From: Polyangium fumosum
GTDB taxonomy: Bacteria > Myxococcota_A > Polyangia > Polyangiales > Polyangiaceae
Length of the DNA stretch: 64,000 nt
Direction of reading: 5' to 3'
NCBI RefSeq assembly: GCF_005144585.1
Contig: NZ_SSMQ01000042.1
Coordinates: forward strand, 1-64,000
Shown here: piece after piece, positions 52,245-55,781 of the stretch
Position numbering within the stretch: the first letter of the stretch is position 1
Layout of the letters: each line of letters begins with the position of its first letter
The notes under the pieces: model-generated
What the model saw: only the letters and a program-made list of their open reading frames with translations
What the model was told of the DNA's origin: nothing
Database searches by the model: none
Program-made: the position numbers and the translations under genes

Positions 52245-53444
52245 TCATCCCTCCGCGGGCGCCTGCTCGACGGGGCGCGGCTCCCCGCGGCGCTGCAGCG
52301 CGAGCAGGAGGCCGAGCAGGCTGAAGCCCGCGCAGAGGAGGCCGTACATCACGACCTGGTTGCGGTCGATGAGCCAGCCGGCCGCCGCGGGCCCCGCGAT
52401 CTGCGCGAGGCTGCCGAGCGACTGGCTCACGCCGAGCACCGTGCCCTGCTCCTCCTTGGCGACGCTCCGCGTGATGAGCGTCGTCACGCTCGGACGCACG
52501 ACAGCCGCGCCGAACGAGCCGAGCACCACGAGCACGAGCAAAAAGCCGAGGCTCGTCGCCACGCCGAGCAGGCAGTAGCCGAGGACCATGGTCCCGAGGC
52601 CGATCGCCGTGAGCCGCTCCTCGCCGAGCCTCTTCACGAGCCGCTTGAGCAGCCCGCCCTGCACGATCGCGCCGATGAGCCCCGAGAGGCCGAAGATGAG
52701 GCCCGCCTGGTGCAGCTCGTAGTTGAACTGGCGCTTCAGGTAGACGCCGAGCGCGCCCGTGAGCGCGGCGAACGAGACGCTGAAGAAGAAGAACTCGGCG
52801 AGGTGCTTGCGCGGGCCGGGACGCGCGAGGTACTCGGCCATGCCCGAGAGCCGCCGGCCCGTCTGAGCCGCGGGCTTGCGCGCCGGCAAGAAGAACGCAG
52901 TGAGCAGGATCGCGGCCAGGCTGAGCCCAGCGGCCGCGAGCGTGGGCGGCTTGTACTTGAAGAGCGGATCGGGGTGATCCCGGAACAGGTACGTGAGCAG
53001 CGCCGTGATGCCGGGGCCGAGCAAGAAGCCGGTGCCGAACGCGATGCCGAAAAAGCCGAAGGCCTGCGTGCGCTCCTCGTTCGGCTTCGTGACGTCGGAG
53101 ATGTACGCCTGGGCGATGCTGAGGTTGCCCGCCGTGAGGCCCGCGATGATACGGCCGACGAAGAGCATCTCCAGGTTGTGCGCAGCCGCGAGCGTGAGCC
53201 AGCCGATGAGCGTGCCCACCTGGCTGAGCAGGAGCACGGGCTTTCGACCAATACGATCCGAGAGCCGGCCGAGCATCGGCCCGGACACGAACATCGCCGC
53301 CGCGTAAACCGAGGTCAGGAGCGTCGCCTGAAAATCCGACGCGCCGTAGTCCTTCGCGTAATACGGCAGCAGCGGCAGGATGAGCGTCAGGCCGAGGACG
53401 TCAACGAAGACGGTGAGGAATATCGGCAAAAGCGGGGATCGCAT
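52245..53444 (-). CDS. MFS drug transporter, TetA-like (DHA1)
   Basis: 399 residues; ATG 53444 follows GAGGCGAG. Twelve hydrophobic segments. The start FLTVFVDVLGLTLILPLLPYYAKDYGAS is typical of DHA1 exporters, with the MFS motif A loop GRLSDRIGRKPVLLLSQ between helices 2 and 3. The motif-C-like GFLLGPGITALL is in helix 5, and in the second half GTVLGVSQSLGSLAQIAGPAAAGWLID. Closest in appearance to tetracycline-type H+ antiporters, but substrate cannot be told. The stop (TGA) abuts the stop of the convergent PAS-STAS gene with no gap. No repressor gene is adjacent. Its upstream region (53445-53846) contains the nested palindromic element. Confidence 0.9.
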   Translation of the reverse strand: MRSPLLPIFLTVFVDVLGLTLILPLLPYYAKDYGASDFQATLLTSVYAAAMFVSGPMLGRLSDRIGRKPVLLLSQVGTLIGWLTLAAAHNLEMLFVGRIIAGLTAGNLSIAQAYISDVTKPNEERTQAFGFFGIAFGTGFLLGPGITALLTYLFRDHPDPLFKYKPPTLAAAGLSLAAILLTAFFLPARKPAAQTGRRLSGMAEYLARPGPRKHLAEFFFFSVSFAALTGALGVYLKRQFNYELHQAGLIFGLSGLIGAIVQGGLLKRLVKRLGEERLTAIGLGTMVLGYCLLGVATSLGFLLVLVVLGSFGAAVVRPSVTTLITRSVAKEEQGTVLGVSQSLGSLAQIAGPAAAGWLIDRNQVVMYGLLCAGFSLLGLLLALQRRGEPRPVEQAPAEG

Positions 53445-53846
53445 CGACGGCTCGCCTCGTTCGTACGGCGCGCCACGAGGCGTTCGGGTGGCGCTGGGCG
53501 CGCATCCTGACACAGGCGCCGCGAACATGCCCTTTCGTCGCGTCAACTTCTGGTCCCGCGTTGGGGCGTTGCCCCAAACCCCACCAGGGGCTGTCCGCCC
53601 CTGGACCTGGACCAGCGAGGCGCTGGACCCAGGACGATGAACTGCGCGGTGCGCAGTTCATCGCACAGGCCGGGTCAAGACTGGCAATGAAGTCAGCAGC
53701 GCTGACGTTTCGACGGGCAACCCTCCTGGCTGCTGGAAGAACTGCGCATTGCGCAGTTCTTCCATCCTCGGTCCAGGCCGTGCCTGGTCCGGGTCCAGGG
53801 GTGGACAACCCCTGGTCGGGGTCCGGGGTGAAACCCCGGCGCTGCG
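53445..53846. other. Intergenic region holding the nested palindromic element
   Basis: 402 nt between the MFS start (minus) and the speA stop (minus). About 116 nt of ordinary sequence precede the element listed next. Short open frames cross it on both strands and encode mirror-like Pro/Gly-rich peptides because the DNA is nearly symmetric. They are not genes. Confidence 0.6.
53561..53839. repeat. Nested palindromic element (nine hairpins, mirror arranged)
   Basis: Nine short perfect hairpins in a row: 53561-53577, 53584-53604, 53612-53626, 53636-53662, 53692-53706, 53735-53763, 53773-53787, 53795-53815 and 53823-53839. The fifth is central (53699). First and ninth, second and eighth, third and seventh, and fourth and sixth pair up as mirror partners. 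Their midpoints agree with 53699-53700 to within a base. The loops of the second and eighth (TGTCC and GGACA) are reverse complements, so each arm can also pair with the other. Stems reach 12 and 14 bp in the fourth and sixth. The ninth lies 8 nt from the speA stop. No transposase or target-site duplication was seen. Confidence 0.85.
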
Positions 53847-55781
53847 TCAGAAGCTCAGGTAGGTCTGATCCTTGAGGCCACGCTCGTAATCGGCGAGCAG
53901 GCGCATGCCCTCGGTGGGCTTGAGGAGGTCCTGCTTGATCGCGCCGTCGACCTGGGCCTTCACCTTCGCGATGAGGCTCTGCGTGTCGTACTGCGTCATC
54001 GCGAGGACCTCGCGGATCTGGTTCCCCGCGATCGTCTCCTCGATGTAGTAGCCGCACTCCTCGTCGTCATCGAGGAAGACGTGCACCTCGTTCACCCGGC
54101 CGAACAGGTTGTGGATGTCGCCCATGATGTCCTGGTAGGCGCCGGTGAGGAAGATGCCGAGGTAATACGGCTCGTCGCCGCGCAGCGCGTGGAGCGGCAA
54201 CGTCTCCTTCACGTCGGAGAGGTCGATGAACTTCGAGACCTTGCCCTCCGAGTCGCACGTGATGTCGACGAGCGTGCTCTCCGCGCCCGGCCGCTCGTGC
54301 AGCCGGTGGATCGGCACGACCGGGAAGAGCGCGCCGAGCGCCCAGTGATCGAGCAGCGACTGGAACACCGAGAAGTTGCAGATGTACTGGTCGGCGAGCT
54401 TGTTTCGTAGCTCGACGACGTCTTCCGGGATCTCCGCGGGATCGAGCGCGGCGATGAGCTTCTGCATGCGCTCGGCGGTCTCCCAGAAGAGGGCCTCCAC
54501 CCGCGCCTTCACGTCGAGGTTCAAGAGGCCGAGCTCGAACATCTTCTGCGACTCCTCCTTCACCTGGAGGATGTCGTGCCACGACTCGGCGAGGTTCTGG
54601 ACGGAGAGGCTGTCGCGCGTGTCGAGCACGTTCCGGATGAGCTTGTGCTCCTCCGTCTGGATGTCGATCGGCGCCTCCGGGGTCTTCTCGATCGAGCCGA
54701 ACGCTTGCACCACGAGCACCGAGTGGTGCGCGACGATCGCGCGCCCCGACTCGCTCACGATGTTCGGGTGCGGGACCTTCTCGTCGTCGCAGATGTCCGC
54801 GATGTTGAAGACGATGTCGCGCGCGTACTCCTCCACGGAGTAGTTCATGGACGAATGAAACGTCGATCGCGAGCCGTCGTAGTCGATCGCGAGGCCGCCG
54901 CCGACGTCCATGTACTCAATGCGGTGCCCCATCTTGCGCAGCTTCGCGTAGTGCCGCGCCGCCTCGCGCACCGCGCGCTTGATGACGAGGATGTCCGGGA
55001 CCTGCGAGCCGATGTGGAAGTGCAGGAGCTTGAACGCCGAGCTCATGCCCGCCTCCGCGAGGATCGCGCAGGCCGCGAGGATCTCGGCCGTGGACAGGCC
55101 GAACTTCGCGTGCTCGCCGCCGCTCTCGGCCCACTTGCCGGCGCCTTGCGTCATGAGCCGGACGCGCAGGCCGAGCATCGGCTCCACGTTCATTTCCTTT
55201 GCAACACGAACGATCGTCCGCACCTCGGAGAGCTTCTCCGCGACGAGGATGACCTTCTTGCCGAGCTTGCGGCCGATCATCGCGGTGCGGATGAAGTTTT
55301 CGTCCTTGTAGCCGTTGCAGACGATGAGCGACTCGTTGTCGGTGTGGACGCTGAGCCCCGCGAAGAGCTCGGGCTTCGAGCCGACTTCGAGGCCGTAGTG
55401 GTAGGTCCGGCCCGCTTCGAGGATCTCCTCCACGACCTCCTTGAGCTGGTTCACCTTGATGGGGAACACCCCGCGGTAGGTGCCGCGGAACTTGAGGTCG
55501 GAGATGGCGCGGTTGAACGCTTCGTTCAGCGTGCGCACGCGGTGGTGCAAGAGATCCTGGAAGCGGATCAGGAGCGGCGTGCGCAGGCCCTGCTCACGCG
55601 CCTCTTCGACGACGTCGATGAGGGCGATCTTGCGACCACGCTCCTGCAGGGGCGCCGCCGTGATGTTCCCCGTGGGGTTCACGTCGAAGTAGCCGCGGCC
55701 CCAGCGGTCGATCATGTAAAGGGCCTTCGCGTCGTCGGTGCTCCACGCGTCGGTGTCGGTGTCGTGATGGCTGCTGGTCAA
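53847..55781 (-). CDS. speA: Biosynthetic arginine decarboxylase SpeA
   Basis: 644 residues from TTG 55781 (GGGAGA about 9 nt upstream; the next in-frame ATG is internal, at MIDRWGRGYF). PLP-dependent fold III enzyme that makes agmatine from arginine, the first step of polyamine formation. Landmarks: YMIDRWGRGYFDVNPTG, GVFPIKVNQ (Lys of the PLP Schiff base), YGLEVGSKPELFAGL, LLHFHIGSQVPD, MDVGGGLAIDYDGSRS (phosphate loop), VSESGRAIVAHHSVLV, and near the C-terminus LGIFLTGAYQDIMGDIHNLFG. Mg2+-dependent in relatives. Cytosolic. The companion agmatinase or agmatine deiminase is not in the window. The hairpin at 53823-53839 could end its transcript. Confidence 0.95.
   Translation of the reverse strand: MTSSHHDTDTDAWSTDDAKALYMIDRWGRGYFDVNPTGNITAAPLQERGRKIALIDVVEEAREQGLRTPLLIRFQDLLHHRVRTLNEAFNRAISDLKFRGTYRGVFPIKVNQLKEVVEEILEAGRTYHYGLEVGSKPELFAGLSVHTDNESLIVCNGYKDENFIRTAMIGRKLGKKVILVAEKLSEVRTIVRVAKEMNVEPMLGLRVRLMTQGAGKWAESGGEHAKFGLSTAEILAACAILAEAGMSSAFKLLHFHIGSQVPDILVIKRAVREAARHYAKLRKMGHRIEYMDVGGGLAIDYDGSRSTFHSSMNYSVEEYARDIVFNIADICDDEKVPHPNIVSESGRAIVAHHSVLVVQAFGSIEKTPEAPIDIQTEEHKLIRNVLDTRDSLSVQNLAESWHDILQVKEESQKMFELGLLNLDVKARVEALFWETAERMQKLIAALDPAEIPEDVVELRNKLADQYICNFSVFQSLLDHWALGALFPVVPIHRLHERPGAESTLVDITCDSEGKVSKFIDLSDVKETLPLHALRGDEPYYLGIFLTGAYQDIMGDIHNLFGRVNEVHVFLDDDEECGYYIEETIAGNQIREVLAMTQYDTQSLIAKVKAQVDGAIKQDLLKPTEGMRLLADYERGLKDQTYLSF

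Follow-up and report, generated by a model that had tools for sequence, protein, structure and literature searches.

A hairpin element behind speA in Polyangium fumosum is one copy of a genus-wide palindromic family, probably a MITE mobilized by a Tn5-like insertion sequence

What is the block of hairpins that lies between the arginine decarboxylase gene speA and an MFS transporter gene in Polyangium fumosum? The window analyzed here is a stretch of 64,000 nucleotides (nt) of contig NZ_SSMQ01000042.1, from the genome that we call G000. An earlier note had described nine consecutive perfect hairpins in this spacer, arranged as a mirror about position 53699, and had proposed a miniature mobile element or an RNA attenuator for speA. 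All nine hairpins were found as perfect inverted repeats. The features are given below in window coordinates, with strands for the two genes.

52245..53444, minus strand: MFS transporter gene, downstream (MFS_1, E 3.4e-63; start taken at the ATG at 53444)
53549..53846: whole element (core, ~298 bp), with homology to other copies over ~53556-53846
53561..53577: H1, outer hairpin of arm A (TTGGGGC-GTT-GCCCCAA)
53584..53604: H2, arm A (CCAGGGGC-TGTCC-GCCCCTGG)
53612..53626: H3, arm A (CCAGCG-AGG-CGCTGG); in other copies, the IS lands in the corresponding hairpin
53635..53663: H4, arm A (CGATGAACTGCGC-GGT-GCGCAGTTCATCG); source of the family search pattern
53664..53733: central segment with the small hairpin H5 (53692-53706)
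53734..53764: H6, which is H4 of arm B (TGGAAGAACTGCGC-ATT-GCGCAGTTCTTCCA; A-T pair at the loop)
53773..53787: H7, which is H3 of arm B (CCAGGC-CGT-GCCTGG); its inner 9 bp, GGCCGTGCC, are a frequent IS target in other copies
53795..53815: H8, which is H2 of arm B (CCAGGGGT-GGACA-ACCCCTGG)
53823..53839: H9, which is H1 of arm B (CCGGGGT-GAA-ACCCCGG)
53847..55781, minus strand: speA, biosynthetic arginine decarboxylase (TIGR01273, E 1.2e-218; NF003763, E 8.7e-256)

Arm A is thus on the left and arm B on the right. The outer 12 bp of the element were set from the end consensus GGRGSCGYNKCG, which the left side here matches poorly. The mirror order was borne out, with averaged partner midpoints at 53700, 53699.5, 53699.5, and 53699 and the center at 53699. 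The symmetry is not base-exact as had been claimed, the arms being only 79% complementary over 63 nt and 76% over 38 nt. Both strands fold far better than shuffled sequence: the plus strand RNA reached -214.7 kcal/mol versus -136 +/- 5.9 for 100 shuffles, none of which folded as well (z -13.3), and the other strand gave a z of -11.9.

The element lies 3' of speA and directly adjoins its stop codon, and this contact is what speaks for an attenuator or riboswitch specific to speA. When the same spacer was compared across Polyangium, the element was present in G000, G002, and G003, with the A arm left in the first two and the B arm left in G003. The spacer of G001 measures some 43-50 bp only and lacks the element, and in G004 and G005 (L086/L090 loci) the spacer holds a different palindromic family instead, with repeated units around GGTGGTTCGAAACCACTTCGAAGG. 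Members of the family analyzed here adjoin many unrelated genes (see below), and searching 53000-54400 against Rfam gave no match at gathering score (best E 0.61, 20.3 bits versus 100). An attenuator or riboswitch dedicated to speA is already contradicted by these data, and its probability is next to nil.

Searching for the H4 hairpin pattern with up to two mismatches in G000 yielded 304 and 300 matches on the two strands (control, 0 and 2). The pattern is near-palindromic, so these matches would represent roughly 300 hairpins, or about 150 two-armed copies. All six Polyangium genomes contained the pattern, with 51-545 matches per genome (both strands summed), and none of 102 other genomes of Polyangiaceae had a match. 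A sequence search of 59 genomes agreed: the family was found in 6/6 Polyangium genomes, in 1/31 genomes of other genera of the family, as a weak match (E 3e-4) in a genome that has none by pattern count, and in 0/22 from other families of the order. Among the matches listed, 74 of the 80 named loci belonged to Polyangium; the other six were single hairpins in scattered taxa. The window element is therefore one copy of a dispersed, Polyangium-wide family, so far found only in this genus, at tens to hundreds of copies in each genome. The earlier note had made a mobile or structural reading depend on occurrence in other genomes, and the element is indeed present in relatives. A literature search found no description of this hairpin family, which is no proof of absence. 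The plasmid collection searched with the element gave no match and the phage collection gave two 50-bp matches: MT837043 and MT838741, unannotated "Bacteriophage sp." entries from human feces, match about 50 bp of H1-H2 (53553-53607) at 87-90%.

The family is unevenly spread on the G004 chromosome. Among 40 evenly spaced 20-kb samples, arms were detected in 10/22 samples at 2.3-9.3 Mb, limits that earlier lists had suggested, versus 0/18 elsewhere (p 8e-4). Cumulative GC skew is weak in these samples and has its maximum near 7.3 Mb, so the family-bearing half is probably the terminus half.

Each copy consists of two inverted, non-identical arms with four hairpins each, and the distance from H4 to H4 is 56-122 nt (6 nt trimmed on each side; 54 copies listed). 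The 143 copies with two H4 hairpins comprised 117 A/B copies, one A/A copy, one B/B copy that was due to spurious pairing, and 24 with another hairpin on one or both sides; a further B/B copy was encountered at site B of G004 (see below). Solo four-hairpin arms ending in GTGCATC...GATGCA occur at L204 and L205. At L212, L128 (near 4443), and L206, another arm type, with the hairpin GCGACGACTGCGC...GCGCAGTCGTCGC or a relative, is nested in or beside copies.

How the hairpins are conserved was read from a joint alignment of the 122 orientable copies among these 143 (21/143 could not be oriented), in which the H1-H4 stems are paired nearly always. The two arms differ from each other by compensated pairs at fixed columns (columns 100/128 in 120/121 copies and columns 103/125 in 120/122). 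These differences keep the local stems and break pairs between the arms. The alternative in which the arms pair with each other as a long cruciform, this pairing being the conserved structure, draws on the fold of one RNA strand as a single long hairpin at the -214.7 kcal/mol given above. It is already contradicted by the A/B differences, and we consider it highly improbable. The earlier note had also suggested drift limited to compensating positions and had made its reading depend on covariation between mirror partners; both were found inside each local hairpin and not between the partners.

The local pairing is nearly complete. With a fixed structure, 99.9% of 1020 cells were paired in 34 arms, which represent 17 of 22 listed copies (five were omitted without a stated rule); 78 cells were changed on both sides and none on one side, and slid-structure controls on the same arms gave 33-49% paired. 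The unselected counts come from the 122-copy alignment: the stem cells of its 244 arms comprise 7788 Watson-Crick pairs, 83 G-T, 44 A-C, 83 other combinations, and 54 cells with gaps. Eleven pairs of copies in orthologous spacers were compared as well (a twelfth pair could not be oriented; three of the 11 are comparisons among the three copies at the speA site). Their pair changes were 55 compensated, seven one-sided (G-T), and none broken; unpaired positions differed at 0-25 of 77-79, and six pairs had opposite orientations. Among thousands of stem pairs, changes on one side only are almost absent, and this calls for a mechanism. The scarcity of G-T pairs fits pairing at the DNA level, folding of the transcripts from both strands, or the swapping of preformed modules, and the data do not separate these.

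Comparison of the same sites across Polyangium genomes revealed real turnover, together with in-place inversion or replacement. G002, G003, and G005 have no copy at site E, where their spacers measure 25-28 bp. At site C, G002 has an empty spacer of 22 bp, and the copies of G003 and G005 are in opposite orientation. At site A, G004 and G003 have one arm only, with another H4, where G000 has a full copy; at site B, the outer hairpins are kept in four genomes and the inner hairpins differ. Site D is occupied in five genomes by copies of different length classes and both orientations. Two further loci do not represent clean insertions, since the relatives have 0.5-3 kb of other DNA there. Near L193:16790-17124, where G000 has the element, G004, G005, and G002 have 1.9-3.0 kb of coding-looking DNA, and L193 was rejected as a clean empty site because this DNA is also missing from G000. 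Near L194:12990-13325, the element of G000 corresponds to other coding-looking DNA of 1.0 kb in G004 and 0.5 kb in G002. At L192:6535-6861, repeats of ~330 bp around GGAAACGTTGCGCGAGC lie beside a copy, and both are absent together in G002, G003, and G005.

A minority of copies carry terminal repeats. The 18-bp sequence CTGAGCAYNGGTCTCATC was present on both sides of eight and on one side of 23 of 189 copies (31/189; chance level, 11/3960 random windows), and a direct search detected 8-64 such sites per genome (control, 0). A complete member measures 350-392 bp, with inverted CTGAGCAYNGGTCTCATC repeats flanking the A and B arms around a variable center. The remaining 158/189 copies have no terminal repeat, and the window copy, which lacks it on either side, is one of them.

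The earlier note had suggested looking for flanking direct repeats, and these exist at the terminal-repeat ends. Exact 9-bp flanking repeats were found in 10/24 units bounded by terminal repeats, and repeats with at most one mismatch in 15/24, where shuffling expects 0.7 and 1.0; the count covers set size classes only and keeps a spurious inner pairing (L324 170-1637). A 3.5-kb pairing at L332, outside the size classes, is without duplication. Considering the MITE-sized units separately, 5/15 have an exact 9-bp duplication, 9/15 have one with at most one mismatch, and 6/15 have at least four mismatches, one of which (L337) has a 10-bp repeat by eye. No such signal accompanies the core's own ends, where 3-, 5-, and 8-bp direct repeats showed no clear excess at any offset in 109 copies. 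Conservation of the core stops sharply at -12 from H1, inside the terminal repeat. The most alike copy pairs (96-97%) carry a terminal repeat on one side or both; pairs without any (L020/L023 and L008/L014) reach 95%, so that lacking the repeat is not always a matter of age.

We also considered whether the MITE aims at hairpin targets. The pooled p of 2e-5 had mixed in IS copies sitting in H3, and the claim was dropped. For the 15 MITE-sized units, p was 0.009 versus random, 0.08 versus GC-matched, and 0.03 versus shuffled sites, with strong hairpin targets in three (L030, L337, and L338).

The search for terminal repeats led to a 1.5-kb insertion sequence (IS) with the same ends, encoding a 475-amino-acid transposase. 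The protein matched NF033590 (E 2.8e-71; 240.6 bits, cutoff 160), exceeded the Pfam cutoffs for Tnp_DNA_bind, Dimer_Tnp_Tn5, and DDE_Tnp_1, and aligned with the Tn5 transposase structure 1mus (E 7.7e-31). Target duplications of exactly 9 bp flank the units at L324, L327, and L329; the duplication at L326 has one mismatch, and L273/L328 has no duplication. Excerpts of PMC2266710 give duplications of 9 bp for IS10 and 8-9 bp for IS50, and in the table there the IS50 row agrees with the 1.5-kb element in size, in the 5'-CT end, and in the 9-bp repeat. With its DDE transposase and 9-bp duplication, the partner IS belongs to the IS4 family and is of the IS50 type. The complete IS was read in G002 and G004; the evidence in G000 comes from 24 fetched contig ends that carry a terminal repeat, 19 of which had a BLAST match to the IS.

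This IS lands preferentially in hairpin 3 of the family. In G002 and G004, 4/6 units of IS size or larger sit exactly in a family H3 hairpin (L324, L325, L327, and L329); at L273/L328, half of an H3 is present on just one side, and L326 lies elsewhere. In G000, 20/24 terminal-repeat contig ends begin exactly at H3 when read by eye, although two ends may represent one insertion. A script flagged H3 at 21/24 ends and at 16/19 of those matching the IS, including L358, which by eye is at H2. The unit at L325:138-2227 is 2.09 kb long, shares the terminal repeats, and sits in H3 with an exact duplication of 9 bp. It contains a 537-amino-acid open frame without a Pfam match, and no transposase was found in it; possibly, it is a passenger-carrying unit.

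Where do the copies reside? Neighboring genes, predicted with a home-made gene caller, were convergent for 72, tandem for 43, and divergent for five of 120 copies; 23/143 copies were excluded (17 overlapping a called gene, six at locus edges), and the count includes copies of one site in several genomes, which are not independent. Control spacers in the same loci were distributed 14/100/61 (>=60 bp) and 46/216/77 (all sizes). The convergent excess, 72/120 against 14/175 or 46/339, gave Fisher values of 1.8e-22 and 1e-21, respectively. Copies of G000 alone were distributed 18/15/1, plus four overlaps, and in the G004 samples from 2.3-9.3 Mb a copy was present in 6/69 convergent versus 6/243 other spacers (p 0.03). 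In tandem pairs, the median distance of the copy was 16 bp from the upstream stop versus 77 bp to the downstream start. Native convergent spacers have medians of 13-18 bp, and thus abutting both stop codons is expected of any insertion there.

This location raises the possibility that copies were exapted as bidirectional terminators or 3'-end RNA structures and retained because their hairpins, on either strand, would halt or protect convergent transcripts; this would be compatible with a MITE origin. Besides the convergent excess and the proximity to upstream stops, the state of the hairpins points this way. In 96 oriented copies without terminal repeats, 95.5% (H1), 92.3% (H2), 98.7% (H3), and 99.5% (H4) of the pairs are still Watson-Crick, the value for H4 being biased by ascertainment because H4 was the search key, and pairs that are almost only Watson-Crick are expected if both strands must fold. 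Against this, no terminator-like site (GC-rich hairpin plus T run) was detected in the window between 53400 and 53900, an insertion of any kind is safest in a convergent spacer, and one-side changes would be absent under DNA-level correction or module exchange, too. We hold retention as a terminator tentatively, as a possibility somewhat short of an even chance.

Taken together, the shared ends of the small units and the 1.5-kb IS make the family best read as a MITE. We propose, with a probability of roughly 0.7, that the window element is an old resident copy of a Polyangium MITE mobilized in trans by the Tn5-like IS transposase, and that it formerly had terminal repeats. The miniature mobile element of the earlier note thus holds up in genus-wide dispersal and site polymorphism and, for a minority of copies, in terminal inverted repeats, fixed-length duplications flanking MITE-sized units, and an autonomous IS that shares these ends and occurs in the same genomes. 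Several observations count against this reading: the 158/189 copies without a terminal repeat, the end of core conservation at -12 from H1, and orthologous spacers that often hold the opposite orientation or another length class, a pattern not accounted for by simple insertion and descent. The core may spread otherwise, or the IS ends may have been captured late.

These observations could be accommodated if the core were a REP/BIME-like repeat spreading by its own means, one subfamily having captured IS4-type ends and the IS merely landing there. The many copies without terminal repeats, the sharp stop of conservation within the repeat, and the 95% identity of pairs lacking it would then be expected, and the inverted A/B heterodimers at gene 3' ends are arranged as in BIMEs. 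There is also a precedent in an IS4-family IS that has all nine copies in REPs, according to excerpts of PMC1525189. The REP/BIME likeness seen in the earlier note therefore stands for architecture and 3'-end location. It does not extend to the transposase: no RAYT was found, and the single PF01797 (Y1-type) match in the 201-contig assembly of G000 is an ordinary IS200 (L196:1350-2010) with its own ends, CCCCCGGC...GCCGGGGG, and none of these arms. A RAYT/IS200 mover of the family was therefore rejected. Moreover, the most alike pairs have a terminal repeat on one or both sides. We regard an independently spreading core as unlikely, though worth keeping in mind.

According to the MITE proposal, the IS50-type transposase would move MITEs in trans, making 9-bp duplications, and copies would build up directly downstream of stop codons, chiefly between convergent genes, presumably because insertion there is least harmful. 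Most copies would then lose their terminal repeats while their hairpins stay intact, either because modules are exchanged between copies or arms or because hairpins are selected at gene 3' ends. A bolder version, which we find rather doubtful, is a self-reinforcing pair. The IS would spread the MITE to 3' ends, H3 would serve as its landing pad, selection for the landing pad together with arm inversion and module exchange would keep the eight compensated hairpins of each copy with hardly any intermediates, and the pair would have filled the terminus half of the chromosome. In this scenario, further IS copies and passenger units would land by preference in the third hairpin of the MITE.

How REP-like palindromes arise and why they lie at gene ends has long been asked. 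In this family, a single genus offers a form with terminal repeats, a REP-like form lacking them, and an autonomous IS4-family element that shares the ends and lands in the palindrome. A route from MITE to REP and hairpin-targeted transposition of the Tn5 type thereby become directly testable in Polyangium.

REPs, BIMEs, and REPINs of enterobacteria and pseudomonads are high-copy extragenic palindromes that form inverted pairs of two unit types at gene 3' ends. The Polyangium element differs from them in its length of ~300 bp, its eight arm hairpins, the IS4-type ends on some copies, and the fact that no RAYT gene was found in G000. The partner IS resembles IS50/Tn5 in its 475-amino-acid transposase with DNA-binding, DDE, and dimerization domains, its size of ~1.5 kb, its 5'-CT ends, and its 9-bp duplication, and it differs in its CTGAGCAYNGGTCTCATC ends, its genus-confined partner MITE, and its strong preference for H3. 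In excerpts of PMC10969869, QMITE2 of Coxiella burnetii is a MITE with a palindrome targeted by IS1111, which recognizes a GTAG palindrome, and truncated MITE copies without terminal repeats resemble REPs. The Polyangium family is similar to what is described there in that a MITE palindrome is an IS target and copies without ends are REP-like; unlike IS1111 as presented in these excerpts, the Polyangium IS shares the ends of the MITE. The IS4-family element ISRm22 of Sinorhizobium meliloti inserts in REPs, which often lie between convergent genes (PMC1525189, in excerpt), and provides another case of an IS4-family element landing in extragenic palindromes. In contrast to ISRm22 as described in that excerpt, some of the palindromes here carry the terminal repeats of the IS, so that target and cargo are one family.
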